This document shows positions 5,151 through 48,214 of a stretch of DNA of 64,000 bases, piece by piece; position 1 is the first letter of the stretch; each line of letters opens with the position of its first letter. Below the pieces are notes generated by a model. The model saw only the letters and a program-made list of their open reading frames with translations, searched no databases and was not told the origin of the DNA. Origin of the DNA: Aliiroseovarius sp. F47248L (GTDB taxonomy: Bacteria > Pseudomonadota > Alphaproteobacteria > Rhodobacterales > Rhodobacteraceae); contig NZ_JALKBF010000002.1 of the NCBI RefSeq assembly GCF_023016085.1, forward strand, positions 117,797 to 181,796, read 5' to 3'. The translations under genes and the position numbers were made by a program.

Positions 5151-5173
5151 GATCCTTGAAGGAGGTAAATACG

Positions 5174-7081: not shown

Positions 7082-7084
7082 ACC

Positions 7085-30149: not shown

Positions 30150-30965
30150 ATGAGCATTTTCCAGGTCGGTATTATAGTCGCTATTGCTTTGGTGGGTGCT
30201 TTGATTGGCGGTGTGGCGCTGTTTCAAAACACGGCAATCTATCGGTTTTCTGCCGAGCCGGGCACACCGGGCGATTATGGCCTGACCGAAATGGAGGAGG
30301 TCACTTTCACCAATTCCGATGGTGCGCCGTTGCGGGCGTGGATTGCCCTGCCGAAAGGCGATGCGCCGATTGTGATCAGTTTTTATGGCAATTTCACGCA
30401 GTTCGGTCCCTCGGTTCAGCATTTGACGCCGTTGATCCAGCTTGGTTATGGGGTGGCGGTGATGGAGTATCGTGGTGCCGATGGCACCGGGCCTGCAGGT
30501 GAAGTTGGCTTCGCTCAGGATGCCCGCGCATTCTATGACCAACTAGACGGGCTCGCGGGTGTGCTCATTCCTGCAGATCGTCGGATCATTCACGGCTTCA
30601 GCCTTGGCAGCAGTATCGCGACCCATTTGGCGGCGACGCGGGATGCTTCGGCGCTGGTTCTGGAAAGCAGCTTCGACAGCCTGTGCCGGTTTCAAACGCG
30701 GCGATTACGCGGGGTTCCCATGTGCTGGTTGATGTGGCGCGAACGCCATGATGTGCGAGATCTGATTGGCGATGTCGATATGCCAATCCTGATTGCCCAT
30801 GGTGCGAAGGACACGTCCATCCCCTTGGATTGGGCACAGGCTTTGTATAACGCTGCACCCGACCCCAAAACATTCAAGGTTTATGAACACGGCACGCACA
30901 CCACGTTGTTCGATCTTGGTCTGGTGGACGAAATTGCCCGATTTTACGCGAATCATACCGGCTAA
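30150..30965 (+). CDS. Membrane-anchored alpha/beta hydrolase (BEM46/ABHD13-like)
   Basis: The 271-residue protein has one N-terminal membrane segment (about 5-27) and a soluble hydrolase domain with the nucleophile elbow G-F-S151-L-G-S, the acid in AHGAKDTSIP and the His in YEHGTHTTLF. The layout fits the BEM46/ABHD13-like group of membrane-bound serine hydrolases. The stop overlaps that of the convergent PPTase gene by a few bases. Being next to the synthetase genes it might process their product, but it is on the opposite strand and the link is only positional. Confidence 0.82.
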   Translation: MSIFQVGIIVAIALVGALIGGVALFQNTAIYRFSAEPGTPGDYGLTEMEEVTFTNSDGAPLRAWIALPKGDAPIVISFYGNFTQFGPSVQHLTPLIQLGYGVAVMEYRGADGTGPAGEVGFAQDARAFYDQLDGLAGVLIPADRRIIHGFSLGSSIATHLAATRDASALVLESSFDSLCRFQTRRLRGVPMCWLMWRERHDVRDLIGDVDMPILIAHGAKDTSIPLDWAQALYNAAPDPKTFKVYEHGTHTTLFDLGLVDEIARFYANHTG

Positions 30966-31645
30966 CCATCATCGGCCAGATAGCAGACACAACAGATCGA
31001 CATTTGTGATGCCAACGGCGCGAACGCCAAACGGCAATCCGGTGCAGTTGGAAGGTCATAGCGAACCGGCCAACCCTGACTCAGCCCCAGTGAAATGCTT
31101 TTAGGCGGCAAGGTCATACCAGCGCCTGTTAGTTTCATCCGCGCCTCTTTCGCGGTCCAGAACGCAAAAAATCGTTTCGCTCGGTCGCGATCATCAGCGG
31201 CGGCCAGAGCGTGCTGCTCTGCCTCGGTCATACAGCTCTCGGCCAGCCCGGAGAAGTTCAACTTCCGATCAATGTGTTCGACATCCACCCCGACCGGGCC
31301 ATCTTGAGAAACCGCAATCACCGCAAGATCGCCACTGTGCGACAAGTTGAATTCAGGTCCATCGCCAAGTAAGTGCGGCTTTCCCTGAGCGCCATAGTCG
31401 AAAACCAACGCTGCCGGGTCTTGCTTCGTGGCATTGCCCAGAACGCGGCGCAGCTGCCCCCGCGCGCGCGAATAACGCATACGGTCGCGGTCGAAATGAA
31501 ACCGGTCAGCGCGCGCAACCTCGTCGCTGGACAGCAATGACACCGCATCGTGCAATGCAATGTCTCGATCATCTCCGATTGAAAACGTATACACGGTGAT
31601 GACGTCTGGCAGTGCGGACCCAATGGCGGAATACATTGGCTGCAT
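30962..31645 (-). CDS. Sfp-type 4'-phosphopantetheinyl transferase
   Basis: The enzyme moves phosphopantetheine from CoA to the Ser of carrier domains. Motifs counted from ATG 31645: NLSHSGDLAVIAVS (100 onward), the Mg-binding G119-V-D121-V-E123, and W163-T-A-K-E167 ARMKLTG. The length of about 227 residues fits the Sfp group. Starts at 31675 (20-base overlap with the synthetase) and 31636 are possible; AGGGA precedes 31636 by eight bases. It lies immediately downstream of the hybrid NRPS/PKS on the same strand and is surely its activating enzyme. The target Ser residues are S538, S1542 and S3124 of that protein. Confidence 0.93.
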   Translation of the reverse strand: MQPMYSAIGSALPDVITVYTFSIGDDRDIALHDAVSLLSSDEVARADRFHFDRDRMRYSRARGQLRRVLGNATKQDPAALVFDYGAQGKPHLLGDGPEFNLSHSGDLAVIAVSQDGPVGVDVEHIDRKLNFSGLAESCMTEAEQHALAAADDRDRAKRFFAFWTAKEARMKLTGAGMTLPPKSISLGLSQGWPVRYDLPTAPDCRLAFAPLASQMSICCVCYLADDG

Positions 31646-31655
31646 CCCTGACGTC

Positions 31656-34600
31656 TTATCCCCCGTCCGGTCCATGCAGCCGAATTTCCTGTTCCATCAT
31701 GTCGGCAAGGTCACGCGCAGCGTCACCCCGCAAGATCTCCAAGTGGTTTGACGGATGGGTTGCAAGGCGCAAATTGCCGTTCACCAAACGTGACCAACCA
31801 AAGCCCGGATCTGCCTGCCGCGCAAGAGTTGCGGCAAAACCATCTGCTTCGGTGATCACCAGCCAGACATCATCGTCGTAGGGCTTTGGATTATACCGGG
31901 CACTGGCTTCCACCCAGCGCTGGCTCAGCACCTCAAGCCGGAACGCATCGGGTTTCACTTTGTTGGCCAAACGAACGATTTTATCGGACATCAGCTTGCT
32001 GCGCACCCGCGCCAAAAGGCGGGTGCCGAACCCGCGCGCGCCCTGTTTGCGCAGCAGATCCTGTTCCATCTTCAAGCGTTCGGCGAACGGGACGCGCAGA
32101 TCGACATGAAAGCCCGGTGCTTCAACGTCAATAATGCCAAGAAACCCAACTTCGTCCCCACCGGCGCGCAGTTGCTTTGCGATCTCGAACGCGGCAAAGC
32201 CGCCGCCGGAATACCCGGCCAGAAGATATGGGCCTTCAGGCTGATGCCGCTTGATGTTCTGAATGTGATCGGCGGCCATATCCTCGATGCTGTCATGCAT
32301 CCTGTGACCCATAACACCACGGGTTTGCAGACCGATCAGGGGACGGATTTCTCCGACAATCTGACCCAGTTCGAACAGGTTGTTTACATTGCCGCCAACA
32401 CCGCCTGCGATGAAGATCGGGCGGCGCCCGTCACCGGGGCCTGCGTGAATCACAGCGGTAGTGTCCCAAGGATCATCCTCGAACTCGCCAGCTTTCAGGA
32501 CAGGCGCGTCCGAGGATGTCACCTGTGTCGCCAGCTTGCGAATGGTCGGATAAGACAAAAGCGCCGCGATCGGCAGGTCGACACCGAACTCGCGTTTGAC
32601 CCGCGCAAACAATTTGACCGCCATCAGGGAATGGCCGCCAAGCGCGAAATAATCATCGTCAATGCCGATGTCATTCGTGCCAAGTAGCTGCGTCCAGATC
32701 TTGTGCAACTTCACCTCTTCCGGGGTGTGCGGTGTGCTGTCGCGCGGCTGTTCAGATACAAGGCTGGTCTGTGACATCTCGCCCAGCGCGGTTCGGTCGG
32801 TTTTGCCATTGGGGTTCAACGGCATCGCATCCAACACCTGAATGCGCGCGGGCACCATGTAATCCGGCAAAGACTGAGCAAGTGTCGTGCGCAAGGATTG
32901 GGCATCCAGCTCCTGCCCGTCAACGGCCGTGACGAAGGCCAGCAGCAATGTATCGCCGCCGCCGTCCATCGTGGTTGTTGCCACCGCCTCGGACACGCCG
33001 GGCTGTGCAGCCAGTGCGACCTCAACTTCGCCAAGTTCAACCCGCGAACCTCGGATTTTGACCTGATGGTCAGACCGGCCATGATACATCAGCCGGCCGT
33101 CTGGCAAGCTGCTGACCAGATCACCCGTCGCGAAATAGCGTGCATCGGGGTCGTCCATGAACGGGTCTCTCAGGAACCGCTCAGCCGTCAGGTCGGGGCG
33201 GTGCAGATAGCCCGCGGCCAGCACATCACCACCGACATAGAGTTCACCCACCGTGCCAGTCGGCACCGGTTGCCCTGCCCCGTCAAGAATATACAGACGC
33301 GCATTGTCAATCGGTCTTCCGATAGGGATCTCGTCAGTATCGGGGTCGCGCACGATCTCGCAGGTGACATCGGCGGCAACCTCGGACGAACCGTAAAGGT
33401 TTACCAGCGTCACATCCGGCGCAAGCGCCTGCAGCTGTCGCGCGAGGCTTGCGGGCAGGCGTTCGCCCGAGCAGAACAACAGCTTCAGAGACGGTATCGT
33501 GTCTTGAAGGTTGGTTTGTGTTTCCGCCAACGCTTTCAGAAGCGATGGCACGACCAACAGACGCGAAACCCTGTGGTCGGCAAGCGTATTCAGGAACGCA
33601 GCAGGGTTGCGGACGGTATCGGCAGAGATGATGACCTGCGGAACACCAGCCAGAAGCGGGCCAAAAATTTCCCACACGCTGTCCACGAATGATATCGCGG
33701 TTTTCTGGCACATCACTTCGCCGCCTTCGAAGGGGAAGGTGTTCCACATCCAGACAAAGCGGTTGATCGTTGCCCGATGGGTGCCCATCACTCCCTTCGG
33801 ATTGCCCGTAGATCCGGAAGTATAGCAGATGTAGGCTGGCGAAAGCGGGTCAATCTCGACCTCGGAAAAATCTATCGCACCGCCGTCCGCGTCCAGCGGC
33901 ACATTCTCAACAAGGAACGCCCCCGCAAGTGCAAGCCGCTTGGCCAAATCTTGATTGGTGACGACAAGCCGGGCTTGAGAGTCTTCGACAATATACTGAA
34001 TACGCGCTGCAGGGTTCGCGGGGTCCAACGGCAGGTAAGCCGCCCCAAGACGCATGATCGCCAACATGGATGCAACCATGTCGACAGACCGTTCCAGACA
34101 CACACCCACAACATCGCCGACGACGACGCCTGATTGCATCAACGCGCGTGCGATTTGATCCGATCTTTGATCGAGTTCCTGATAGCTGATCGTCTCGCCA
34201 TGGTCGATCAGCGCGGGGGCATCTGGCGTCGCACTCGTCTGCTCGGCAAAAAGACGCCCGAGATCGACGGTAACTGGGTATTCCGTCACTTCTCCGCGCC
34301 ATTGGGCAAGTAACATCTGCTTCTGTTCCTCTGAAATAAGCGGCAAATCCTTGACGTGTGTGGCTGGCTTTGCTGCCAGGGCCGCTAAAAACTCATTAAA
34401 TTGCGTATTGTGTCTTTCAATTGTTTCGACGTTAAACAAATCGGTATTGAAGGTCCATTCCGCTGTGATGGATTGGCGGTTATCCGTCACATTCAGGAAG
34501 ATTTCGAATTGTTCAAACACCCTTGGGTTGGAAATAAACTCGGTCTGCGCACCCCCGAATTGCATATCACTCAGGTCGATGCCGTTGTCGATATTGAAGA

Positions 34601-37600
34601 TCACGGGAGTCAGCGGCACACGGCTGGGATCTTGCGGCATCTTCAAGGCACGCACCAGCGCGCCGAAGCCGAAATGCTGGTGTTCGCTTGCATCAAGCAA
34701 CGCGGTTTGAGTGGCTTTCAGCACATCGCTAAACGGTACGTCGGGATCAACATGGGTATACACCGGCATCAGATTGACACAATGCCCCACAAGGCTGTCC
34801 ATTCCCCGCGACGCCTGACCCGAAGACGGCACCGCGACCGCGATGTGGTTGCTGCCGCTGATCCGCGCCAGATAGGCATTAAAGGCGGCCAGCAGCAGGT
34901 TGACCAGCGTTGACCCCTGCCCCGCCGAGGTCTTGCGAAGTTTTGCCACCAGATCAGAGTCGAAATTAGCATCAAAACGATCCGCCGCCACACTGCGGAC
35001 TGCAGGACGTGGTCGGTCGGTCGGCAGATCAAGAACCGGCGGTGTTGCGGTGTTCCGGTAGGCTTTGAAAGCCTCTAGGAAGTGATCCCGGTCCGCTTTT
35101 GCCGCATCCGAATGCGCCCAATCGGCTTCGGCCCTGGAATAGTCGATAATGCTGTGCGGTGCAGGTAGGTCCACGCGGGCATCGTCCAGAAGTGCGGTAT
35201 AAATTTTGCCGATGTCGCGGACAATCACGTCAATCGACCACCCATCGCAAACGATGTGGTGGGCGGTGATGATCAGATGGTGCAGGTCATCTCTCAGCTT
35301 CACCAACACGGCGCGGATCAGTGGCCCCTTGGCCAGATCGAAATGGGTTGTCACGTGGTCGCGCAACAATGCCTTCATCGCCGCGTCGCGATCCGCGTCA
35401 GTCTGACTCGAAAGATCCTTCTCTTCGACCGTGGCATTGCCCTTTGGCGTAATCCGCATCTCGGTCCCATCATCCGAGAAGGTCGAGCGCAGCGCATCAT
35501 GGCGTTCGAATGCCTGCTTCGTTGCTTGCACAAGTTCTGCACGATCGATCCGGCCTTGCAGCTTCAGTGTGACGCTTTCGTTATAGGCGGGCGAAACTTC
35601 CGGGTGCATCACAACAGCGCCCCAAACTTCGCGCTGCGCGTCCGTCGTGGGAACGACAAGCGGCTCCAGCGGCTTAGCCATTTCAGCCGCGATTTTTTCA
35701 GCACCCCCCGGCAAGCTCAGACGCGGTGGCACATGCGACAGGCGCGGCCCGTCATAGGCCACAGCCTCGCGCCCGGTGATCAGACCCGAAGACCGCATTT
35801 CAAGCGCGGAATCCTTGAACGCCTCGACCACATAGTCGATATCTTCGTCGTTATGCGCGGCGGTCATGTAAGACGGGAATCCTTCCAACAGGAACACGCC
35901 ACGATCACGCATATGCGCGCCCAGAAGCGCCCCGAACTTCTGATCTTCTCCAATGCGCAGATACATCAGAGAGCCGCAGTTGGGCATCTGGAACGGCATG
36001 TCGTTTTCGGCAAACCACCGATCCACGCGCCCCGCCAATCGGTCGCCCTTGGCGTTGACCGTTTTCCAGAAGAAATCAGGTTGCGACTTGAAGAAGCGCA
36101 GCATCTCGCGCAGTGACGCCATGGCCAGCGGATGACGCACAAACGTGCCGGCAAAGAAGGTGACGGGCGCTTCGGGGAAGCTGTCGTCACCGTATTGCCA
36201 TTGGCCACCGTCGAACGTGTCCATGTATCGCGCCTTGCCAGACACAACGCCCACAGGCATCCCGCCGCCGACCACCTTGCCATAGGTGACAAGGTCGGCA
36301 TCCACACCGTAATAAGCCTGCGCCCCACGCGGGCCGAAACGGAATCCGGTGACAACCTCGTCAAAAATGAACAACGCGCCTGACCGTTCTGTAACCTTGC
36401 GCACTTCTCGGATGAAATCACGCGGACGGAATTCGGGACGGCGGCTTTGCACCGGCTCGACGATCACAGCGGCAAGGCTGTCGGCATTCTTGCGAATGTA
36501 ATCCAGCGCCTGCGGCGTGCCGTAAGGCAGCACGATCACATTCTTCACCGCGTCGCGCGGAATGCCGGGGGCCAGCGGCAGCGTGCGCGGGCCGTCTTTG
36601 CCATCCACCGCACGCACCAGAACCTCGTCGAAATTGCCGTGGTAATCACGCGCAAACATCACGATCTTGTCGCGGTTTGTTACCGTGCGCGCCAGACGCA
36701 TCGCGGCATAGACAGCCTCGGACCCGGTACAAACAAAGCTGGCACGGTCATTACCAGTGACATCACAGAACAGTTGTGCGGCCTCCATCGCCACAAGGCT
36801 TTGTGGCCCGACCTCGAACCCGTCATCCAGTTGGTGATGCAACGCCTCGACCACCTTGTCGGGTGAATGGCCAAGGAAGCCGGGACCGAACCCGTTCAGG
36901 ATGTCGATATATTCGTTGCCGTCCACATCCAACAGACGTGAGCCTTTGGATTTCACCGTCACGATCTGATAGACGATTTCCTTCCACAACCGGTTGAACC
37001 CCGATGCGGTGCGCGGGTCGGCATGGGTGGCGCGGTGTTCAGCGGTCAGCGCCTTTGACTTCGCAGTCTTCGCGGTGAAGCGATCCACCAACGCGTCGAT
37101 ATGGGCCTGTTGCTGCGGCGTAAGCTCGTCAGCCTCACGTTCAATTTTGGTGACAGGCGCCGAGGATGGCGAGGCTTGCGCTTCGTCCGTTTCGATCTTG
37201 GTCAACTCAGCCGGAGCCGCCTTTTCAGCAGGTGCTGAGCCGGGCAACGTGCCGTGCGCCTCAATATGTTCTGCCAAGGCATCCACATTGGGGAAGCCGT
37301 CGATCAACTGGCGCAGGGCCACGGTGACCCCAAACTGTTCGCTCAACTCGCGTATGGCTTGGGTCAGCAGAAGACTGTCGAAACCGAGTTCAAGGAACGA
37401 CGCATCACCGTCGATCTCATCCGGCTCAAGCCCAGATAACTCCGCCAGCATGTCGCGCAATGCCTCGCCCGCGGTCAGCTGCGGCGCGTTGACATCCTCG
37501 GACACTTCGACGGTCGCTGAGGTGGCTTCCAACGCTGCATAGTCGACAGAGACATCCACAGGTTCGACCCAGAAGCGTTTGCGCTGGAACGGATAGGTGG

Positions 37601-40600
37601 GCAGCCCGGTCAGACGCGTTGCAGGCGGGCGATCATTGTCGATGCGCGACCAATCGACGGGATAGCCATTGGCCCACAACTCACCAAATGCCGATAGAAG
37701 ACTGTCATGCGAGTTGGCGTTTTCAGCCTGCGCGGCGGGCAAGGACGCAATTGCGGGCTGCGCTTTCTTCCGGTCAGGGTTCTGGCCCGATAGGGTCGCC
37801 ATTGTACGGCCCGGTCCAGCCTCAAGAAAAATGTGCCGGTTTTCGGCCCACAAAAGCTGGATCGCGTCATAAAACCGGACGGGGCGGCGCATGTGCATGG
37901 CCCAGTAATCTGGGTCGGTCGCCTCGTCATCTGTCATCCAATCACCGGTTACGGTGGACAGGATCGGAATGCGTGGGGCGTTCAGGGTCAGTCCAGCCAC
38001 AGCTTCACGGAACGGCTCAACCGCCGGGTCCATCATCTGTGAATGGAAGGCGTGGCTGGTGTGCAGGCGCGAGGCGACGATCTCGTCCTTTTCAAGCCGC
38101 TTCAGAAGGTCTTGCGCAGCGTCTTCCGGCCCGGCCACAACGCAGGCCTTGGCCCCGTTTACTGCGGCCAGATCAATGCCGTCGCCCAGATATGGCTTAA
38201 CCTCGTCCTCGCTTGCACGGACCGAAATCATGACACCTTGCGGCAGGTCCGCCATCAGACGCCCGCGCAGGGCAATCAGCTTCAACGCATCGGGCAATTC
38301 AATGACGCCTGCAATGGTCGCGGCGGCAAATTCGCCGATGGAATGGCCAACCATCACATCAGGCGTGATGCCCCAATGACGCCACTGCTGGGCCAGCGCA
38401 TAACCAATCGAAAAGATCGCGGGCTGGGCCAGTGCAGTGTTTCTTAGCTTCTCGGTCGCGCATTCGCGTTTGCGGTCTGGCGCGTGGATCACATCCAGTA
38501 AGTTCAGGCCCAGTTCATCTTCCAGTAGCTGGCCGCACAGTCCCAATGCTTCGCGAAACACAGGCTCCTGTTGATAAAGGTCACGCGCCATTCCAGCGTG
38601 CTGCGCCCCCTGCCCCGGGAACAGGAAAGCCAACGCGTCACGTTGACCGGCGGCGATCCCCTTACCGGTGAAGCCTTCCGCAACTGTTGCCAATTCAGAC
38701 AGGTTGCGCGCAACCAATGCAGTGCGTTGACCAAATTCCGTGCGGCCCGTGCGCAGGGTTGCAATCACCCGATCAGCGTCTGCATCAGGGTTCGCCGTGG
38801 CCCATGCCCCCAAATTGGCGACCGCGGCTTTCAAAGCTTCGGGAGTCGAGGCCGAGATCGGGAAGACGCGCGGCGCGTCATCCGTCGCGGGGGATACAAG
38901 TGTATCAACCTGTGGCGCTTCCTCCAACACCATATGGATGTTTGTGCCACCCACGCCAAATGCCGAGACGCCCGCCCGACGCGGTGCTTCTGTGCCGGTC
39001 CAGTCCAGCCGTTCAGCTACCGGGAAGAATGCGGAATTGTCGAAATCAATGCGCGGGTTGGGTTTCTTGTAATGCAGAAGCGGCGGGATAACCCCGTGCT
39101 TCAATGTCAGTGTGGTCTTGATCAGACCGGTTACACCAGCCGCGATATCCAAATGGCCCAGATTGGTTTTCACGCTGCCAAGTGCGCAGAAGCCCTTGTC
39201 TTCCGTGCTGGCCGAAAAGGCTGTTTGGAGGGCTGTGAATTCAATCGGGTCACCAAGTGGGGTAGCAGTGCCATGCGCCTCGATATACCCGATCGAGCGT
39301 GCATCGACGCCCGCCGCCGCATGGGCGGCGCGGATCACATCGGTCTGCGCCTTGATCGAAGGTGCGGCATAACCCGCCTTGTCATGCCCGTCATTGTTGA
39401 TCGCATATCCTTTAATCACCGCAAGGATGTTGTCGCCATCGGCCTCGGCATCCTCAAGCCGGCGCAACACGACCAACCCTGCCCCGTCACCAAAAACGGT
39501 GCCGGTTGCATCGGCATCAAAGGTCCGGCAATGCCCATCTGCCGAGGCCATGCCATCCGGCAGATACATATACGGCCGTTTGGTTGGGAAGGTGATCGAG
39601 ACTCCGCCTGCCAATGCCATATCCGCATCGCCGCGCAAAAGCGCCTGACAGGCCTGCGCCACCGCAACCAGAGAGGTCGAGCAGGCACATTGCACGGTGA
39701 CGGCAGGCCCGCGCAGGCCGAGTTTGTAAGCGATGCGTGTCGCGATGAAATCCTTGTCATTGCCAAACAGCGTGGCGAAATCTTGGACCGGATAGCCTAT
39801 AGCCAGTTCGCGAGATGCACCCGGTGCGGACAGCAAGTTGTTAAGAAGGTACGAGTTCTGGCTTGATCCGGCAAAAACGCCGATGCGCCCGTCAAATCGC
39901 GCCGGATCGTGGCCAGCGTTTTCCAACGCGGTCTGTGCGACCTCAAGCAAGATACGGTGTTGGGGATCAAGACGCTCGGCTTCTTTCGGGGGGATGCCGA
40001 AATGGCGCGCGTCAAACATGTCCGGTTCAACCATCGCGCCACGGGCCCGCACATAAGGCGCGTCCGGGTCGTCTTTTGATGGGTCAACGTCCAGTTCTTC
40101 CTCAGTAAACTGCGAAATCAGCTCGCGCCCATCCATCAGAGCCTGCCACATGTCTTCGGCGCTGTTTGCACCGGGATAACGACCGGCAAGGCCAACAATG
40201 GCAATCGGCCCGCTGTTGGACATGTCGCGCAGCTTCGCCTTTTGCGGGGCGGGCTGGGCTTTAGTCACGGGATCGGACAGATGCGCCGACAAGGACGACG
40301 CTGTGGAATGCAGAAAGAAGTCCGAAATCGGGAAATCGCGCTTCAGCTTGTCTTGCAGACGTTCATGCACCCGCGCGATATGCAACGACGACGCCCCAAG
40401 ATCGAAGAAATTGGTGTTGGGGTCGACCTCCGCCACCTCAAGCACATCGGACAGCGTGTTAAGAACCAGCGTTTTGGTCGACGCATCCCCGTCACGTTTG
40501 GCGGCTTTTTTGCGTGTTTTCGGCAGCGCGCGTTGCTCCAACGCTTTGCGGTCGACCTTGCCGTTGTTATTGATCGGCAGCGCGTCCAATGCCACCAGAT

Positions 40601-41999
40601 GCGCGGGCACAGCGTAATCTGGCAGTTGCGTTTTCAGATGCGTCCGCAGCGCGTCCACGTCACAATCGGTATCGGCCACATAGTAGCCGACCAACGTTTT
40701 GTCAGCCCCGTCAGCCCCTGCGCGCGCGATGGCCGCTGCCTGTCTGATACCGTCAAATTGCTCCAACGCCGCTTCGATGCCACCCAGTTCAACCCTGAAG
40801 CCACGCACTTTGACCTGCTTGTCGATCCGCCCCAGATAGCGAATGACACCTTTTTTATCGCGTTCGACCAGATCGCCGGTGCGATAGAGGCGCACGGACT
40901 TATCCCACGGCGCGGGAACGAAAACTTCGTTGGTCAGATCGTCCTGACCCAGATACCCCAGCGCCAGACCCAGCCCTGCGGCACACAGCTCGCCCGGGGT
41001 GCCGTCTTCGACTCGCTGCAAATCTCCATCCACAACAAACACGTCCGTGCCGTTGATCGGCTTGCCGATGGGCAAGGGCTTGCCCGCTTTTGCCTGCGTC
41101 TTGGTGATCTTGTGACAGCACGTGAAGGTCGTGTTTTCAGTCGGCCCATAACCGTTGATCACGACCAGTTTCGGACAGGCCGCCTGCACTTTGGCGACCT
41201 TGTCGGGCGATACAACATCGCCCCCGGTCAGAAGCTGGCGCAATGGTTCGAAATCCTCGGGGCGTTCGTCCGCCATTGCGTGGAACAGGCCTGCGGTCAG
41301 CCACATGCTGGTGATCTTCTGGTCGCGAATGATCTTGCCCAACCCGCGCAAGGATGTGTCGTCGCTGTCTGGCAAAACCAGCGTGCCTCCATTCAGAAGC
41401 GCTCCCCAGATTTCAAGCGTCGAAGCATCAAACGCGATGGGCGAGTTCTGCAAGATCCGTTCGTTGGGACCGAGTTTCATGAAACTCTGGTTACGCACCA
41501 ATCTGATAATCCCGCGATGCGGCACTACCACGCCCTTGGGCACTCCTGTGGTGCCAGAGGTATACATGACATAGGCCACAGCCTCGGGGTCGTGCTTAAT
41601 ATTCAGTGGCTTAACAGGCTTCAAGCCGGTATCAGCCACAGACAATTTTGGAAGCGACATGTCCTTCAGAGCTGGGATATCCCCCACAACAGCCGCCAAC
41701 CCACTGTCCTTGGCAATCATGCGGATGCGATCGTCCGAGTAATATTCCGGCAAAGGCACATAGCCCGCCCCTGCCTTCAATATCCCCAGCGCCGCAATGA
41801 TCGTGTCAACCGAGCGGTGCCCGGACATACCAACAAGACTGCCGGCTGTGACACCGGCTTCCGCAAGCCGCGCGGCCACCGCGTCAGAACGCTCCTCAAG
41901 GTCATGATAACTAAGCACATTTGCGCCCTGGCTTAGGGCTGCACGATCCCCGTGTTTGTCAGCCACGGAGCGGAATATGGAAACGACGGAATATGGCAT
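31656..41999 (-). CDS. Hybrid NRPS/PKS: A-PCP-KS-AT-ACP-AMT-C-A-PCP-TE
   Basis: This 3447-residue assembly line contains, in order: adenylation A1 (about 10-505), PCP (Ser538), ketosynthase (Cys773, His909, His949), acyltransferase (Ser1220; HAFH 1316-1319, the malonyl type), ACP (Ser1542), PLP aminotransferase (Lys1908), condensation (H2247-H2248-IVC-D2252-G), A2 (about 2570-3060), PCP (Ser3124) and thioesterase (Ser3264, His3419). No KR, DH or ER lies between AT and ACP. Aligning by eye to GrsA positions, A1 reads DALWLGGTFK, close to the valine code DAFWIGGTFK. A2 reads VDWLFSLADK, close to the beta-alanine code VDWVISLADK. The AMT position after ACP resembles MycA of mycosubtilin. Predicted chemistry: valine plus malonate, transamination of the beta-keto group, amide bond to beta-alanine, release. 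All catalytic residues are present; substrate calls are inference. Confidence 0.96.
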   Translation of the reverse strand: MPYSVVSIFRSVADKHGDRAALSQGANVLSYHDLEERSDAVAARLAEAGVTAGSLVGMSGHRSVDTIIAALGILKAGAGYVPLPEYYSDDRIRMIAKDSGLAAVVGDIPALKDMSLPKLSVADTGLKPVKPLNIKHDPEAVAYVMYTSGTTGVPKGVVVPHRGIIRLVRNQSFMKLGPNERILQNSPIAFDASTLEIWGALLNGGTLVLPDSDDTSLRGLGKIIRDQKITSMWLTAGLFHAMADERPEDFEPLRQLLTGGDVVSPDKVAKVQAACPKLVVINGYGPTENTTFTCCHKITKTQAKAGKPLPIGKPINGTDVFVVDGDLQRVEDGTPGELCAAGLGLALGYLGQDDLTNEVFVPAPWDKSVRLYRTGDLVERDKKGVIRYLGRIDKQVKVRGFRVELGGIEAALEQFDGIRQAAAIARAGADGADKTLVGYYVADTDCDVDALRTHLKTQLPDYAVPAHLVALDALPINNNGKVDRKALEQRALPKTRKKAAKRDGDASTKTLVLNTLSDVLEVAEVDPNTNFFDLGASSLHIARVHERLQDKLKRDFPISDFFLHSTASSLSAHLSDPVTKAQPAPQKAKLRDMSNSGPIAIVGLAGRYPGANSAEDMWQALMDGRELISQFTEEELDVDPSKDDPDAPYVRARGAMVEPDMFDARHFGIPPKEAERLDPQHRILLEVAQTALENAGHDPARFDGRIGVFAGSSQNSYLLNNLLSAPGASRELAIGYPVQDFATLFGNDKDFIATRIAYKLGLRGPAVTVQCACSTSLVAVAQACQALLRGDADMALAGGVSITFPTKRPYMYLPDGMASADGHCRTFDADATGTVFGDGAGLVVLRRLEDAEADGDNILAVIKGYAINNDGHDKAGYAAPSIKAQTDVIRAAHAAAGVDARSIGYIEAHGTATPLGDPIEFTALQTAFSASTEDKGFCALGSVKTNLGHLDIAAGVTGLIKTTLTLKHGVIPPLLHYKKPNPRIDFDNSAFFPVAERLDWTGTEAPRRAGVSAFGVGGTNIHMVLEEAPQVDTLVSPATDDAPRVFPISASTPEALKAAVANLGAWATANPDADADRVIATLRTGRTEFGQRTALVARNLSELATVAEGFTGKGIAAGQRDALAFLFPGQGAQHAGMARDLYQQEPVFREALGLCGQLLEDELGLNLLDVIHAPDRKRECATEKLRNTALAQPAIFSIGYALAQQWRHWGITPDVMVGHSIGEFAAATIAGVIELPDALKLIALRGRLMADLPQGVMISVRASEDEVKPYLGDGIDLAAVNGAKACVVAGPEDAAQDLLKRLEKDEIVASRLHTSHAFHSQMMDPAVEPFREAVAGLTLNAPRIPILSTVTGDWMTDDEATDPDYWAMHMRRPVRFYDAIQLLWAENRHIFLEAGPGRTMATLSGQNPDRKKAQPAIASLPAAQAENANSHDSLLSAFGELWANGYPVDWSRIDNDRPPATRLTGLPTYPFQRKRFWVEPVDVSVDYAALEATSATVEVSEDVNAPQLTAGEALRDMLAELSGLEPDEIDGDASFLELGFDSLLLTQAIRELSEQFGVTVALRQLIDGFPNVDALAEHIEAHGTLPGSAPAEKAAPAELTKIETDEAQASPSSAPVTKIEREADELTPQQQAHIDALVDRFTAKTAKSKALTAEHRATHADPRTASGFNRLWKEIVYQIVTVKSKGSRLLDVDGNEYIDILNGFGPGFLGHSPDKVVEALHHQLDDGFEVGPQSLVAMEAAQLFCDVTGNDRASFVCTGSEAVYAAMRLARTVTNRDKIVMFARDYHGNFDEVLVRAVDGKDGPRTLPLAPGIPRDAVKNVIVLPYGTPQALDYIRKNADSLAAVIVEPVQSRRPEFRPRDFIREVRKVTERSGALFIFDEVVTGFRFGPRGAQAYYGVDADLVTYGKVVGGGMPVGVVSGKARYMDTFDGGQWQYGDDSFPEAPVTFFAGTFVRHPLAMASLREMLRFFKSQPDFFWKTVNAKGDRLAGRVDRWFAENDMPFQMPNCGSLMYLRIGEDQKFGALLGAHMRDRGVFLLEGFPSYMTAAHNDEDIDYVVEAFKDSALEMRSSGLITGREAVAYDGPRLSHVPPRLSLPGGAEKIAAEMAKPLEPLVVPTTDAQREVWGAVVMHPEVSPAYNESVTLKLQGRIDRAELVQATKQAFERHDALRSTFSDDGTEMRITPKGNATVEEKDLSSQTDADRDAAMKALLRDHVTTHFDLAKGPLIRAVLVKLRDDLHHLIITAHHIVCDGWSIDVIVRDIGKIYTALLDDARVDLPAPHSIIDYSRAEADWAHSDAAKADRDHFLEAFKAYRNTATPPVLDLPTDRPRPAVRSVAADRFDANFDSDLVAKLRKTSAGQGSTLVNLLLAAFNAYLARISGSNHIAVAVPSSGQASRGMDSLVGHCVNLMPVYTHVDPDVPFSDVLKATQTALLDASEHQHFGFGALVRALKMPQDPSRVPLTPVIFNIDNGIDLSDMQFGGAQTEFISNPRVFEQFEIFLNVTDNRQSITAEWTFNTDLFNVETIERHNTQFNEFLAALAAKPATHVKDLPLISEEQKQMLLAQWRGEVTEYPVTVDLGRLFAEQTSATPDAPALIDHGETISYQELDQRSDQIARALMQSGVVVGDVVGVCLERSVDMVASMLAIMRLGAAYLPLDPANPAARIQYIVEDSQARLVVTNQDLAKRLALAGAFLVENVPLDADGGAIDFSEVEIDPLSPAYICYTSGSTGNPKGVMGTHRATINRFVWMWNTFPFEGGEVMCQKTAISFVDSVWEIFGPLLAGVPQVIISADTVRNPAAFLNTLADHRVSRLLVVPSLLKALAETQTNLQDTIPSLKLLFCSGERLPASLARQLQALAPDVTLVNLYGSSEVAADVTCEIVRDPDTDEIPIGRPIDNARLYILDGAGQPVPTGTVGELYVGGDVLAAGYLHRPDLTAERFLRDPFMDDPDARYFATGDLVSSLPDGRLMYHGRSDHQVKIRGSRVELGEVEVALAAQPGVSEAVATTTMDGGGDTLLLAFVTAVDGQELDAQSLRTTLAQSLPDYMVPARIQVLDAMPLNPNGKTDRTALGEMSQTSLVSEQPRDSTPHTPEEVKLHKIWTQLLGTNDIGIDDDYFALGGHSLMAVKLFARVKREFGVDLPIAALLSYPTIRKLATQVTSSDAPVLKAGEFEDDPWDTTAVIHAGPGDGRRPIFIAGGVGGNVNNLFELGQIVGEIRPLIGLQTRGVMGHRMHDSIEDMAADHIQNIKRHQPEGPYLLAGYSGGGFAAFEIAKQLRAGGDEVGFLGIIDVEAPGFHVDLRVPFAERLKMEQDLLRKQGARGFGTRLLARVRSKLMSDKIVRLANKVKPDAFRLEVLSQRWVEASARYNPKPYDDDVWLVITEADGFAATLARQADPGFGWSRLVNGNLRLATHPSNHLEILRGDAARDLADMMEQEIRLHGPDGG

Positions 42000-42290: not shown

Positions 42291-42869
42291 ATGAATGTTT
42301 TTTGGACCTGCTTAACCGAAACCTGGACCCCTACGATTGGCGATCCTGATCTTCTTGGTTGGGCAACAACACTGCTGTATCTCGCTGCGGCTTACCTGTC
42401 GTTCCGCTGTGTAAGGACCGCTCGGCTCAGTTCCTCCGAGCGTCGGTTCGAGCGGTATTTCTGGGCCTCCACTGCGGTTTTGCTGGCATTGCTGGCCGTC
42501 AACAAACAGCTGGATCTGCAAACTTTTGTCACCTCTGCTGGACGCTGTGTTGCCCAAGGTCAGGGTTGGTATGGGTTGCGACGCAGTGTGCAGATGGCAT
42601 TTGCGTTGATTGTCGCGGGTGTGTTGGGATTCTGGGTGATCTGGATCTTGGTAGGTCTACGCCACGCCATGGCGCGAATGTGGCTGGAACTGCTTGGGAT
42701 CGTTGCCGTGTTTACCTTTGTCCTGCTGCGTGTGTTGCGATTTTTTCATGTCTATCACACCCATCTTCTGGGGAATAATACCTGGGTCGAACGGATATTC
42801 GAAATCACGGGGCCACTCATTCTGATTGTCGCTGCCCTGCGGTTTCTTGGGCGATACCGCAAGACCTGA
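42291..42869 (+). CDS. Small polytopic membrane protein, unknown function
   Basis: The 192-residue product has about five hydrophobic segments (about 22-40, 55-72, 95-118, 127-147 and 165-185) joined by short basic loops, and no catalytic motif I recognise. It starts the plus-strand series that leads into the exosortase locus, 98 bases before the next gene's start. Similar small membrane proteins accompany polysaccharide loci, but nothing here defines the role. Confidence 0.7.
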   Translation: MNVFWTCLTETWTPTIGDPDLLGWATTLLYLAAAYLSFRCVRTARLSSSERRFERYFWASTAVLLALLAVNKQLDLQTFVTSAGRCVAQGQGWYGLRRSVQMAFALIVAGVLGFWVIWILVGLRHAMARMWLELLGIVAVFTFVLLRVLRFFHVYHTHLLGNNTWVERIFEITGPLILIVAALRFLGRYRKT

Positions 42870-42967
42870 TCGCCGCGCCTTTAAGCAATTTGCGCACAAC
42901 GAGGCGGATTGTGATATTGTCGTAAACGGTGCGGCGATATTACGCTGCGAAGCCGGGGGTATTAGAC

Positions 42968-44581
42968 ATGCATTCGATTAAGTTTTTCGGTGGGCTGCGA
43001 CGCGTTTTGAGCATCGCTTTGATAACAGCTGCGCCCGCGGCGATGGCACAGTCTCAGGACAGCCCCCAACCGGTCGAAGTCAACGGCGGCAGTGCCTATG
43101 TCGCGCCCATCCATCTGCCACCCCCGCCTTTATCTGAACGCCCCGTCGTTCAGATAAATTTTCCGGATGCCGCACCCACCGCTGTACTTGGGCCCGAGAC
43201 TCCATTGCCCGGTCACCAACTGCTGCGCGAGCTTTACGCGCGCGGTGAGGCGGCCGGCAACTGGGGCGATTTGTATGAGAACCGGGATCGCAAGCATTCA
43301 CCACTTAATATGGCGCGTCACCCTCAGCTGACGACCTTGCTGTATCACCCCATCCTGCGGGATCAGAACATTGACTATGGCCCGGCGCTTGGATTGCTGT
43401 TCAACGCACCGGTGATCGGCAACTCATCGACTGCACTAACGGCCGGTCCGTTTGCGCGATCGCTTCCACGGATGGTTCTGACAGGGATGCAGGCCGGTGG
43501 TGCTCAGGCACTATATCAGAACTATGTGAACGGGCAGATCCATGTCTATCCGTCCTATCAGGACCATGAGCCAGGCGGCAAAGACATGTTTCCGGCCAAC
43601 ACGCCATACTATATCATTTCGCAGGGTGCTTCAGGGTCGGACCAACCGCATCTTGAGGCGCTGGCGATGATCCTTGCCGCGTTCCGCCCCGACACGAAGG
43701 CCAAACTGATCGAAACTGGCTTACTGGCCTCGACAGTGCAAATGGTGTTTCGCCGCAGCCGGGATCAGGTGGGCGAACGGGGGGCCTATCTTGCCGCTGT
43801 CGCCCATCCCACGGTGTTTCCGCCGGAAGGCATCAATCTGGAACGCATGGTTGCGCTGGCCAATTCGATCAAACCCGAGAACATTCCGCCAATGGTACAC
43901 CTGACGGTTCTGGAAGAACCCGAGGCGACGCCCGGTATTGACATGTTCGGTGATGGGTTGACCGAACGGTTATTCGATACACCCTCGGCCATCGCGCGGG
44001 TCTGGCGCAGCCCTCGGTTCAGCCGCGAGATGGTCGTTTCTGCGCGCGATACCGTTGACCCTAACGGCCTGCCGCTGACCTTCAACTGGGTGTTTCTGCG
44101 GGGTGATGACGATCAGGTCGATATCGAATTGCTGGACGAGGCCGGATCATCAGCGCGCATATCTATGGGTTGGCAAGAAGCGAACGTCATTGCTGGCTCT
44201 CCTGATGTTGTTTCTACACGCGTTGATATTGCGGTGATCGCGAACAATGGTGTGTATGACAGCGCGCCGGCGTTTATCTCAATGCAGTTCGCCGATCACG
44301 AGATCCGGTACTATGAGCCGGGACCGGACGGCGCTATGCAGATCACTCGACTGACCCGCGCGCCCCACCCGGATGTTCCGTTTGACCCTGTGTTGTTTCC
44401 TCGCACCGACTGGATCGACGAATACACCTATGAGGGCACCGAGCTGACCGGATGGGAGCGGCTGACTGACTACGGCAATCAGACCTTCAATGCACAGGGT
44501 GAAACCGCGGGGGCGATGCCCAAATACCCGGTGGTCGAAGGGGTCGATGGTCTGCCCACCGTCGCCCAGCAAACGCAGTGA
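42968..44581 (+). CDS. Secreted protein of unknown function with an Ig-like domain
   Basis: ATG 42968 is chosen because GGGGG lies about eight bases upstream and a clean signal peptide follows (cleavage near AMA-QS), giving 537 residues. The frame is open 39 bases further upstream, but that would bury the signal. The middle part is not recognisable. Residues about 355-440 resemble a PKD/Ig-like fold (VSARDTVDPNGLPLTFNWVF, then AYDSAPAFISMQF-type strands). It should be periplasmic or cell-surface. Position suggests an association with the surface polysaccharide or exosortase system. Confidence 0.75.
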   Translation: MHSIKFFGGLRRVLSIALITAAPAAMAQSQDSPQPVEVNGGSAYVAPIHLPPPPLSERPVVQINFPDAAPTAVLGPETPLPGHQLLRELYARGEAAGNWGDLYENRDRKHSPLNMARHPQLTTLLYHPILRDQNIDYGPALGLLFNAPVIGNSSTALTAGPFARSLPRMVLTGMQAGGAQALYQNYVNGQIHVYPSYQDHEPGGKDMFPANTPYYIISQGASGSDQPHLEALAMILAAFRPDTKAKLIETGLLASTVQMVFRRSRDQVGERGAYLAAVAHPTVFPPEGINLERMVALANSIKPENIPPMVHLTVLEEPEATPGIDMFGDGLTERLFDTPSAIARVWRSPRFSREMVVSARDTVDPNGLPLTFNWVFLRGDDDQVDIELLDEAGSSARISMGWQEANVIAGSPDVVSTRVDIAVIANNGVYDSAPAFISMQFADHEIRYYEPGPDGAMQITRLTRAPHPDVPFDPVLFPRTDWIDEYTYEGTELTGWERLTDYGNQTFNAQGETAGAMPKYPVVEGVDGLPTVAQQTQ

Positions 44582-44799: not shown

Positions 44800-45369
44800 A
44801 TGAAAAAATTCCTAGCAACCACAGCAGTCGTGGGTATGATGGCAACAGCCGCAAATGCCGCGACAGTTGTTGATCTGACAACCGGGGGCGACGTGACTTC
44901 GCTGGGCCAGATGGGGTCGTTTGACACCGTTGGCGCTCAGGGTTCCATCGACCCATGGCGCGCAGGTTCGGGCGCTGACTATCTGACACAGACCGCTGGT
45001 GGTCTTGGTGTCTGGGGTCGTGGCGATTCCAGCTCGCAGCTGGACGGTTTCGTTGACGAAGCCATTACGTTCAACTTCGACTATGCTGTCCGCCTTGTGT
45101 CGGTCACGTTCTCGTATTTCGGTCGTGGTGACGACGCCGACATCTATGTGAACGGCACCAAAGTCGCCAACGAATCCAGCAGCAACCCGTACTATTTCGG
45201 CAACGTGATCGCATCGTCGTTCACAATCGGTGCCGATGGGATCAGCGACAGTTTCCGCATCAAGGAATTCAAGGTTGCACCGGTTCCGCTGCCTGCCGCA
45301 GGCTTCCTGCTGCTTGGTGGTCTGGCCGGCCTTGGCGCTCTGTCGCGCAAGCGTAAGAAAACCGCCTGA
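44800..45369 (+). CDS. VPLPA-CTERM sorting-domain surface protein
   Basis: The 189-residue protein has an N-terminal signal peptide (MKKFLATTAVVGMMATAANA) and a C-terminal tripartite sorting signal: VPLPA, a hydrophobic glycine-rich segment (GFLLLGGLAGLGALS) and a basic tail RKRKKTA. This is the substrate signal of the exosortase XrtD, encoded at 48214. The body is beta-rich with many Gly/Asp residues and no enzyme motif. It should be exported, cleaved at the motif and attached to the cell surface or released with polysaccharide. AAGGG and AAGGA precede the start, and a terminator follows the stop. Confidence 0.93.
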   Translation: MKKFLATTAVVGMMATAANAATVVDLTTGGDVTSLGQMGSFDTVGAQGSIDPWRAGSGADYLTQTAGGLGVWGRGDSSSQLDGFVDEAITFNFDYAVRLVSVTFSYFGRGDDADIYVNGTKVANESSSNPYYFGNVIASSFTIGADGISDSFRIKEFKVAPVPLPAAGFLLLGGLAGLGALSRKRKKTA

Positions 45370-45522: not shown

Positions 45523-47979
45523 ATGACACCTATGACCAACCGCATCTTTTCCGGCATCCTTCTGGCCTGTGCCCTGACCGTTTTGACAAATTGCAAGTCA
45601 TCGGAAGAACGCGCAGAAGAGCATTTCACCGCGGCACTGGAACATGTGGAAAACGGCGATGTGGCCCGCGCCACGGTTGAGTTTCAGAACGTCTTTAGCC
45701 GCAATGGGAAGCATCGCGATGCCCGTGCGACTTATGCCAAGATGCGGCGCGACCATGGTGACACGGCCGAGGCTTACAGCCAATATCTGCGCCTTGTCGA
45801 ACAGTATCCAGATGATCTGGAAGGCCGAAAGTCACTTGCGGAAATGGCGATTGAAAATGGCAACTGGGATGAATTGCGCCGTCATGGTGAATATGCGGCA
45901 AAGCTGGCCCCGGATGATCTGACATCGCGCATATCAATCGTAGCGCTCGCCTATCGAGATGCGGTCATTGGCAACAACGAAACCGGACGAAGCGAAGCAC
46001 AGAAAGCCGCGCTTGAACTGCTTGACGAAGACCCTTCACATCTGGGCCTGCGCCGGTTGGTGATTGACGATTACATCCGTCTGAAAGACTGGAAACGCGC
46101 ACTACAGGCCGTGGACGGCGCGTTGGAGTACGCGCCGGAATCGCCAGAGTTTCTTCAAAAGCGGCTGGGTGTTCTTTATGCAATCAACGATACAGACGCC
46201 ATCGAGCAACAACTGACAACAATGGTCGCGACATTTCCTGACAATCAGCAGATGCTGGCCGCCTTGGTGCAATGGTACATCTCTCACGGCAACATCGACC
46301 ACGCCGAAACCCTTCTGCGTGACCGCGTCGATCCCCAGGACGAAAACCCGGAAGCGGGCGCAACTCTAGTCCGCTTTTTGTCTGAATTTCGCGGCAACGG
46401 CGCTGCAAAAGAAGAGTTGGACAAGCTGATCGCCAGCGGCTCGCCACATCAGGCGCTTTATCGGTCGCTGCGTGCGTCGATCAATTTCGATACCGGCAGT
46501 CCACAAGAAGCGATTGCCGAAATGCAGGCCATACTGGAAGGTGCCGAGCCCTCGGCCCAGACGGACAACGTGAAAGTTGGCTTGGCCCGGATGCTGGACA
46601 CGACCGGCAACCCGGTTGGCGCGCGCGCCCTGATCGAAGAAGTGCTGGAGCGCGACAGCACCCATACCGAAGCCCTGAAGCGGCGGGCGGATTGGCTGAT
46701 CGCTGATGATCAAACCGGGGACGCGATTATGACCTTGCGCGCAGCCTTGGCCGACACACCCAACGATCCCGAAATCATGACCCTGATGGCCCGCGCCCAT
46801 GAACGAGACGGCAACAAGGAATTGATGTCCGAGATGCTGGCGCTAGCCGTCGAAAATTCGAACAATGGGGCGGCTGAAAGCCTGCGCTATGCCAGCCACC
46901 TGATGAGTCAGGGAAAACACCTGCCTGCCGAAGACGCCTTGTTGGGTGCGCTGCGAATCCAACCTCGGAATGCGCAGATCCTTGCAGCATTGGGCAGTTT
47001 GTACATCGACATGCAGGACTGGGGTCGCACCGAACATGTGGCGCAGACCCTTCGTGGGCTGGACTCAGACCAGACCACCGAACTTGCAAACACGCTGACC
47101 GCGCGCCGACTGGCCGCCCAAAATCGCGAGACCGAGCTAAATTCGTTTCTGGAATCTGTCTCGGCGGGCACCGAAGGTGTAGATACCGCAGATATCGTCA
47201 TCATTCGCCGCTTTCTGGATCAGGACGACACTGAACAGGCGCTGGATCATGTCGACAAGCTGCTATCGGTTTCGCCCGATACGCCGATGCTACATTTCGT
47301 GCGTGCGTCCATACTGGCGCAAAGCGGGCGGGTGTCAGAGGCTGAAACCATCTTCAACGACCTGTTGGAAGAGGACGATCAGCGGGCCGAGGTTTGGACC
47401 GCGCTTTACCGACTGCAACGCAGCAGCGGCAACGAAGAAGCTGCTTTGGCAACTCTGGCCACCGCACGGACAACCGTACCAGACAGCGCACAACTGGCTT
47501 GGGTCGAGGCAGGAGAGCTTGAGCTGGCGGGCGATATTGACGGTGCCATTGCCGTCTATGAAAGCCTCTATGCCAAGGATAGCAGCAACCAGATCGTCGC
47601 CAACAACCTTGCCAGCCTGCTGGCGGATCACCGCGAAGACACCGAAAGCCTTGAACGCGCCTATAAAGTTGCCCGTCGGCTGCGTGGGTCAGATGTGGCA
47701 CCGTTTCAGGACACGTATGGCTGGATCGCCTATCGCTTGCAAAACTATGACGAGGCTGTCGCCCATCTGGAACCAGCTGCTGACGTCATGGAAAACAACG
47801 TGACGGTGCAGTATCATCTGGCGATGGCCTATGCCGCCGCTTTTCGCACCGACGCCGCTCTGGCGCAGTTCGAGAAGGTCAAAGCGATGATTGATCCTGC
47901 GAACCCGCCCGCCTTCGTCGCCACGATGGACGCTGAAATCGCCCGATTGAAAGAACCACAAACCGAAGAAGCCAACTAG
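45523..47979 (+). CDS. prsT: PrsT-like TPR-repeat lipoprotein of the exosortase system
   Basis: The 818-residue protein starts with a lipoprotein signal whose lipobox ends in LTNC (Cys24; Cys21 if ATG 45532 is the start). It is otherwise made of tandem tetratricopeptide repeats, visible as recurrent A-x-Y/F...A...L...P patterns (for example VARATVEFQNVFSRNGKHRDA, ALDHVDKLLSVSPDTPM). PrsT proteins of this size and layout accompany PEP-CTERM/exosortase polysaccharide loci and are thought to scaffold export across the periplasm. The xrtD gene follows. A small hairpin (AACTGGT 48003-48009 with ACCAGTT 48019-48025) lies after the stop, but no U-run follows it. Confidence 0.88.
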   Translation: MTPMTNRIFSGILLACALTVLTNCKSSEERAEEHFTAALEHVENGDVARATVEFQNVFSRNGKHRDARATYAKMRRDHGDTAEAYSQYLRLVEQYPDDLEGRKSLAEMAIENGNWDELRRHGEYAAKLAPDDLTSRISIVALAYRDAVIGNNETGRSEAQKAALELLDEDPSHLGLRRLVIDDYIRLKDWKRALQAVDGALEYAPESPEFLQKRLGVLYAINDTDAIEQQLTTMVATFPDNQQMLAALVQWYISHGNIDHAETLLRDRVDPQDENPEAGATLVRFLSEFRGNGAAKEELDKLIASGSPHQALYRSLRASINFDTGSPQEAIAEMQAILEGAEPSAQTDNVKVGLARMLDTTGNPVGARALIEEVLERDSTHTEALKRRADWLIADDQTGDAIMTLRAALADTPNDPEIMTLMARAHERDGNKELMSEMLALAVENSNNGAAESLRYASHLMSQGKHLPAEDALLGALRIQPRNAQILAALGSLYIDMQDWGRTEHVAQTLRGLDSDQTTELANTLTARRLAAQNRETELNSFLESVSAGTEGVDTADIVIIRRFLDQDDTEQALDHVDKLLSVSPDTPMLHFVRASILAQSGRVSEAETIFNDLLEEDDQRAEVWTALYRLQRSSGNEEAALATLATARTTVPDSAQLAWVEAGELELAGDIDGAIAVYESLYAKDSSNQIVANNLASLLADHREDTESLERAYKVARRLRGSDVAPFQDTYGWIAYRLQNYDEAVAHLEPAADVMENNVTVQYHLAMAYAAAFRTDAALAQFEKVKAMIDPANPPAFVATMDAEIARLKEPQTEEAN

Positions 47980-48118: not shown

Positions 48119-48214
48119 ATGGGCCAAGCCCCAAAAATGCCCGATAAACACATCATTAATGTGCAGACTCTGCTAACCAAATTGCTCGCCAGTTTATTCA
48201 AGGGACAGATTTGA
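48119..48214 (+). CDS. Possible 31-residue small protein coupled to xrtD
   Basis: An ATG at 48119, with GAGG at 48108-48111 (seven-base spacing), opens a frame of 31 codons whose product ends [17 protein letters not shown]. The TGA (48212-48214) shares its last base with the xrtD ATG in the sequence TGATG. The C-terminal half would form an amphipathic or membrane-surface helix. It may be a real small protein or a leader that couples translation of xrtD. Not verified by homology. Confidence 0.4.

Follow-up and report, generated by a model that had tools for sequence, protein, structure and literature searches.

In Aliiroseovarius sp. F47248L we found a hybrid NRPS/PKS that starts with an adenylation domain, carries a MycA-type aminotransferase (AMT), and belongs to a synthase family that, as judged from gene neighborhoods in several phyla, is tied to exopolysaccharide (EPS) loci. 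The explanation that we favor, which we hold to be close to an even call, is that the enzyme would load valine, extend it with malonyl-CoA, aminate the β-position, and couple the resulting chain to β-alanine, and that the product would most likely serve, alongside a second synthase, as a cationic amino-acyl substituent of EPS. Below, "the window" is the whole stretch of 64,000 nucleotides that was analyzed, and coordinates are those of the window unless a locus is named.

A hybrid NRPS/PKS with a MycA-type aminotransferase

The synthase is encoded by one open reading frame (ORF), whose coordinates and domain order, first given in a reading of the sequence alone, were found again by ORF calling, Pfam, and motif searches. 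The same sequence-only reading held that a reductive domain is absent, and this was borne out by Pfam searches with 14 families, in which KR, DH, ER, E, and MT domains were all absent from the synthase. Each of the ten domains that are present exceeded its Pfam cut-off (the AMT as Aminotran_3). The start codon of a phosphopantetheinyl transferase (PPTase) gene overlaps the 3′ end of the synthase gene. That reading mentioned neither this gene nor the EPS/exosortase surroundings, the linked second synthase, or the M344 back-module replacement described below. These features are as follows.

31656..41999, minus strand: hybrid NRPS/PKS, A-PCP-KS-AT-ACP-AMT-C-A-PCP-TE, 3447 aa (ORF with ATG start, Pfam, motifs)
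40515..41999, minus strand: first adenylation domain (A1), pocket DALWLGGTFK, valine-like (Pfam and pocket extraction)
40260..40502, minus strand: PCP1, motif DLGASSL (Pfam)
38895..40226, minus strand: ketosynthase (KS), motif QCACSTS (Pfam and motif)
37710..38648, minus strand: acyltransferase (AT), motifs GHSIGE and HAFH (Pfam and motif)
37245..37487, minus strand: ACP (Pfam)
35685..37112, minus strand: MycA-type class III aminotransferase (AMT), PLP lysine in TYGK (Pfam, 6kfm match, alignment)
34290..35672, minus strand: condensation (C) domain, motif HHIVCDG, first domain of the half exchanged in strain M344 (Pfam and motif)
32760..34268, minus strand: second adenylation domain (A2), pocket VDWLFSLADK, presumably β-alanine-like (Pfam and pocket extraction)
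32505..32747, minus strand: PCP2 (Pfam)
31659..32417, minus strand: thioesterase (TE), motif GYSGGG (Pfam and motif)
30962..31675, minus strand: PPTase (Pfam, similarity)

The AMT matched that of the mycosubtilin synthase MycA (PDB code 6kfm) with an E value of 3e-117 over 445 aligned residues, and the TYGK motif with its PLP lysine was invariant in an alignment of AMTs (n = 13). The domain lies directly after KS-AT-ACP and before C-A, as in MycA-type β-aminating hybrids, and the domain set and motifs together point to a working assembly line. In the mycosubtilin and iturin synthases (MycA and BamA), the homologous AMT likewise follows a KS and an ACP, precedes C-A, and aminates a β-ketoacyl chain; those synthases are primed with a fatty acid and yield lipopeptides. 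Our synthase differs from them in its starter, which is an amino acid loaded by an A domain with a valine-like pocket and not the acyl-ligase-loaded fatty-acyl starter of the iturin group. The flavipulchrins, reported in PMC12819058, are a fatty-acid-primed AMT lipopeptide.

The synthase belongs to an amino-acid-primed AMT family

A scan of genome contigs returned at least 584 AMT relatives, from which 80 loci were kept. The AMT was missed in the ORF pass at 4 of these and another 9 end before the KS, which leaves 67; an A domain precedes the KS in 58 of them (with a C domain before that A at L083), and C-A comes straight after the AMT in 49 of the 58 A-primed loci. Having an A domain before KS-AT-ACP-AMT and C-A after it, our synthase falls within this family. 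Readable A2 pockets at 61 loci were D..Q glycine-like (47), valine-like (6), proline-like (3), or other (5), where the D..Q class is broad and takes its name from DILQLGLIWK, which we take to be a glycine code. Readable A1 pockets (n = 56) were valine-like in 21 cases, proline-like in 14, threonine-like in 4, and other in 17. The arrangement had initially been called unusual. What stands of that claim is the β-alanine-like A2, found in 0 of the 61 pockets, and the complete single polypeptide, found in 1 of the 80 loci (L088); the order A-PCP-KS-AT-ACP-AMT-C-A, by contrast, is common across phyla, usually divided over 2 to 3 genes and with a glycine-like A2. That the enzyme might be unique was set aside in view of the spread of the same architecture over phyla.

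A quick tree of 106 AMT sequences, from whose input short, stop-containing, and identical matches had been removed, placed ours with four Rhodobacteraceae and two Verrucomicrobiales (support, 99) and gathered BamA, Paenibacillus, Planktothrix, Nostoc, and G067 in a separate lipopeptide-type group (support, 95). The two Verrucomicrobiales AMTs (L046 and L047) are the nearest seen outside the Rhodobacteraceae, and their identities to ours of about 70 and 64% suggest transfer between phyla. The L046 AMT adjoins PPTase, GT2-like, and sugar-transferase-like genes. Within the Rhodobacteraceae, AMT matches at an E value of 1e-60 occurred in 16 of 295 and 22 of 394 genomes (overlapping samples), some of them only ~40% identical to ours.

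Local setting of the synthase

The window reaches the end of its 181,796-base contig, which is probably a plasmid; the plasmid of Aliiroseovarius M344 (NZ_CP081154.1, 178,736 bases), similar in size and content, supports this. The following genes surround the synthase.

30150..30965, plus strand: α/β hydrolase, acetylxylan-esterase-like, kept next to the synthase in G359 and G360
42291..42869, plus strand: small protein, divergent from the synthase, of membrane-like appearance by eye, matching no family
42929..44581, plus strand: 550-aa protein that matches no known family, found with XrtD in G351, G357, G359, G360, and G364
44800..45369, plus strand: VPLPA-CTERM protein (exosortase substrate)
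45523..47979, plus strand: TPR protein, PrsT-like, of the kind found at exosortase/EPS loci (211 bits, short of the 312 bits that NCBIfam sets as its cut-off)
48211..49815, plus strand: exosortase XrtD (NCBIfam, 703 bits; cut-off, 400)
49903..51309, plus strand: polysaccharide flippase
55908..57083, minus strand: DegT-family sugar aminotransferase
62211..63704, minus strand: O-antigen ligase/polymerase (Wzy_C)

Glycosyltransferases, a sulfatase, FemAB/GNAT proteins, and a deacetylase are also found around the synthase. An XrtD above its NCBIfam cut-off together with a VPLPA-CTERM protein identifies an XrtD/VPLPA-CTERM system. Upstream of the window lie a PF02397 sugar transferase, a Wza-like gene (by eye), and homologs of the M344 chain-length, CpsD-like, glycosyltransferase, and rhomboid genes. 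A polysaccharide neighborhood is present on our contig, yet its sugar transferase, 53 kb from the synthase, is beyond the 30-kb limit of the linkage comparison described below. The M344 homolog of the α/β hydrolase (45%) adjoins the second synthase there. In G360, no match was found for the genes outside the hydrolase within the compared set.

XrtD was present in 4 of 4 genomes of the genus that have the synthase and in 3 of the 17 others (p about 0.006, calculated by hand with no correction for relatedness). Where XrtD occurs without the synthase (three genomes), the block of XrtD, TPR protein, VPLPA-CTERM protein, and 550-aa protein is intact, and because this block can stand alone, the synthase looks like an inserted cassette. 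A flippase of our own type (96%) occurs within the genus only alongside a β-alanine-type synthase. As support for a shared function this covariation has two points against it: it comes from four genomes only and may be plain linkage, and it fails outside the genus, where G120 has the same A2 pocket and a flippase at only 47%.

Other parts of the window hold nitrous oxide reductase genes (2928-11474; NosR-like, NosZ, NosD, and neighbors), which have the order of the M344 nos genes, lie directly after the second synthase, and share the contig with the EPS genes. A TamB-/TamA-like outer membrane assembly pair (11481-17074) is also carried on the presumed plasmid, and one ORF (27104-29443) combines a sulfatase domain with RTX-type calcium-binding repeats.

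Linkage of the family to EPS loci

To compare neighborhoods, we used 62 genomes, made up of 12 of the 16 Rhodobacteraceae AMT genomes and those behind 50 of the 80 loci. Short contigs were excluded, as were some near relatives, and the sample was chosen before the flanking genes of the 80 loci were compared. The initiating sugar transferase PF02397 lay within 10, 15, 20, and 30 kb of the AMT in at least 12, 20, 24, and 29 of the 62 genomes, respectively, against chance expectations of 0.8, 1.2, 1.6, and 2.4 genomes; the observed counts are lower bounds drawn from 150 of 203 matches. Among the matches listed, 33 of the 62 genomes, our own included, had none within 30 kb. Controls were 59 other C domains, taken from the best 150 C-domain matches and falling into 23 clusters in 13 genomes. 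Only 1 of these 23 clusters had PF02397 within 30 kb among the matches listed (Fisher p = 1.2e-4 for AMT genomes versus control clusters, in a test that ignores relatedness).

The flanking genes of 95 loci, 90 of which had a usable flank ORF, were also compared. The recurrent families were PPTase (36 loci), sugar transferase (13), flippase (12), GT2 (11), DegT (11), two unnamed families (11 each), Wzc-like kinase (8), SAM methyltransferase (8), pyruvyl transferase (8), GH16 (7), and TIGR04325 methyltransferase (7). Families were named by similarity to annotated genes, with recurring names checked; ORFs picked by length were partly antisense, and their names were kept only where similarity agreed.

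Twelve of 50 matching plasmid records were examined, and in 6 of them, from Aliiroseovarius, Rhodobacter, Rhizobium (two), Loktanella, and Jannaschia, the synthase lies among annotated polysaccharide genes. The NRPS/PKS lines of Rhizobium, Loktanella, Rhodobacter, and Jannaschia resemble ours in having AMT relatives and a PPTase gene, and they differ in that their AMTs are only 43 to 49% identical to ours. Two of them (L042 and L044) have the order A-T, KS-AT-T-AMT-C-A-T with a glycine-like A2, and several are split over 2 to 3 genes, the last protein being separate and C-containing. The Nostoc record has no polysaccharide genes in a 25-kb stretch; the BamA, Planktothrix, and Paenibacillus stretches, at ~13 kb, are too short for EPS neighbors to be judged.

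Relatives in several phyla often stand beside EPS genes, and the compound may accordingly be a component of the sugar coat. We infer that the product would be attached, as a cationic amino-acyl substituent, to the polysaccharide whose genes share its contig; that no enzyme moving the product onto the sugar was identified counts against such attachment. The product could instead be a free secreted small molecule (a signal, an antibiotic, or a metal-binding vicinal diamine) that is merely coregulated with the coat or carried on the same plasmid, which we consider somewhat unlikely. Consistent with a free molecule, the AMT line ends in its own TE, and in G144 a line of this kind stands apart from any recognized EPS gene over the 40 kb compared, its contig having no sugar transferase among the matches listed. 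In addition, the Spirosoma and Variovorax records show no polysaccharide genes around the synthase and have copper-related genes instead (copper ATPase, multicopper oxidase, copper oxidase, or RND efflux genes; L045 23271-31347, and L043 1-5334 and 28499-31335). Vicinal diamines bind copper, and a copper or iron metallophore, prompted by these neighbors, is kept merely as a rival. A free molecule is harder to reconcile with an EPS linkage that is found across several phyla yet seldom among control NRPS clusters drawn from the same genome set. Moreover, a Pfam scan of 32 window ORFs showed no TonB receptor, which would be expected of a siderophore cluster.

A second synthase accompanies the AMT line

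The contig encodes a second synthase, composed of two proteins.

L009 11820-16265, upstream of the window: formyltransferase-like, A, luciferase-like monooxygenase, PCP
L009 16311-20000 into window 1..2382 (KR-DH-ACP-TE part), plus strand: PKS, KS-AT-KR-DH-ACP-TE

The formyltransferase-like part is a weak match (1fmt; E = 7e-8), and the luciferase-like monooxygenase exceeds its cut-off (TIGR04020, 489 bits; cut-off, 244). The A-monooxygenase part of this synthase and the AMT line have one distribution in the genus, both occurring in the identical 4 of 21 genomes, a coincidence of 1 in 5985 by hand calculation if the two were independent, although independence is doubtful given the plasmid linkage. 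At an E value of 1e-60, this part was present in 13 of 74 genomes, including G144 and G022, and missing from the other 61, including G120 and the two Verrucomicrobiales. In M344, the second synthase lies by the esterase and XrtD and the AMT line by Rce1-like and methyltransferase genes; in our contig these places are exchanged. A SAM methyltransferase and an Rce1-like membrane protease homolog are encoded at L009 10034-11676, and relatives of the two accompany AMT synthases in M344, G120, and flavobacteria. Planctomycete G319 carries, 14 kb from its AMT line, a relative (53%) of the A-monooxygenase part (contig C29, 217977-219509 and 233060-234406), which hints that the two synthases may also be paired outside the Rhodobacteraceae.

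This pairing raises the possibility, which we regard as unlikely, that the AMT line makes one half of a larger molecule and that the second synthase, taken as the A-monooxygenase protein together with its PKS or PKS-NRPS, would supply or attach the other half. The shared distribution within the genus, the presence of both lines in G144, where they adjoin, and in G022, the proximity in G319, and the exchange of places between M344 and our contig would all fit such a division of labor. The absence of the second synthase from most of the 74 genomes does not fit it, and each line has its own TE; the two lie 29 kb apart end to end here, and plasmid linkage alone could explain their co-occurrence in the genus. 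In the explanation that we favor, the AMT line would work beside the second, linked synthase.

Purifying selection and replacement of the back module

The synthase is present in 4 of 21 genomes of the genus, its own genome included. The orthologs in G359 and G360 are each 3447 aa long, have both pockets unchanged, and share the block of exosortase, flippase, and DegT genes; they differ from ours in sequence, with 87 to 99% identity by domain and 7 to 13% divergence in the A domains. Overall dN/dS was 0.060 against G359 and 0.066 against G360. Among the large domains it was lowest in the AMT (0.024 and 0.021, respectively) and the KS (0.031 and 0.024) and highest in A2 (0.120 and 0.103), and C, A2, PCP2, and TE are under purifying selection. 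Orthologs of the same length with unchanged pockets and low dN/dS indicate that the synthase is not a product of chance.

The plasmid synthase of M344 (WP_260519409.1) resembles ours in its adjoining PPTase gene, its EPS plasmid, and its front half (A1, 85%; PCP1, 75%; KS, 92%; AT, 94%; ACP, 90%; AMT, 93% identity) and is unlike ours in its back half (C, 49%; A2, 36%; PCP2, 53%; TE, 40%), where the A2 pocket is valine-like. From this drop in identity, the back module C-A-PCP-TE is read as replaced in M344, with the joint between AMT and C. Pockets vary further afield as well: G120, of another genus, has the same β-alanine-like A2 pocket as ours and DAFFLGCTFK as its A1 pocket, and G144, whose AMT is 80% identical to ours, has a different A2 pocket again.

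Substrate pockets and the predicted product

Both pockets were derived again, by motif and by alignment, and the two routes reproduced the strings DALWLGGTFK and VDWLFSLADK that the sequence-only reading had extracted and proposed for checking. The closely similar DALWMGGTFK and DAFWLGGTFK are reported as valine codes in PMC3943440 and PMC9113097. DALWLGGTFK itself had no match in the literature listings searched. The A2 pocket resembles VDWVISLADK, which we take to be a β-alanine code, and no β-alanine code was found in those listings either. The HAFH motif of the AT is presumably of the malonyl type.

From these features we infer the exact substrates. A1 would activate valine, KS-AT-ACP would extend it once with malonyl-CoA, and the MycA-type AMT would convert the β-ketone to an amine; the resulting 3,4-diamino-5-methylhexanoyl unit would then be coupled to β-alanine and released by the TE. 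The domains and pockets support this assembly-line logic as originally proposed: a valine-like starter, one malonyl extension, unreduced β-transamination, an amide to a β-alanine-like residue, and TE release. Since no reduction precedes the AMT, the simplest predicted product is 3,4-diamino-5-methylhexanoyl-β-alanine (C10H21N3O3), a reasonable prediction because two orthologs keep both pockets at a dN/dS of about 0.06. We know of no described natural product in which this diamino acid is joined to β-alanine. A search of titles and abstracts, with most subscription journals outside its scope, gave, among the entries listed, no match for a vicinal-diamine assembly line or for a link of NRPS/PKS to EPS, Roseobacter, or Aliiroseovarius.

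It is improbable, in our view, that the domain order is right and the chemistry different, with A1 taking leucine or isoleucine, A2 taking another β-amino acid, or the AMT being inactive on the chain. Pocket codes are rules of thumb, and A1 varies within the clade (as in G120) while A2 differs in M344 and G144; set against this, both codes are unchanged in two orthologs despite the divergence of their A domains, and the AMT is the most constrained large domain. Attack of the starter amine on the thioester at the β-keto or β-amino stage, giving a tetramic acid or 4-amino-5-isopropyl-pyrrolidinone and leaving the back module little used, is conceivable on chemical grounds given a first module without anything masking the amine, but purifying selection on C, A2, PCP2, and TE and the C-A directly after the AMT in most A-primed relatives make such early lactamization very unlikely as the main fate.

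Implications for the AMT family

NRPS/PKS lines are normally thought to yield free metabolites. We suggest, more tentatively than for our own synthase, that the AMT family, across several phyla, produces vicinal-diamino acyl units for incorporation into EPS, so that its members would be polysaccharide-decorating NRPS/PKS lines whose exchangeable back module (β-alanine or valine here, glycine in most relatives) would vary surface chemistry. The β-alanine form offers a clear prediction that can be searched for by mass. If true, the cross-phylum tie between the family and EPS would add a new role to those of assembly lines and, in one stroke, account for many orphan clusters.
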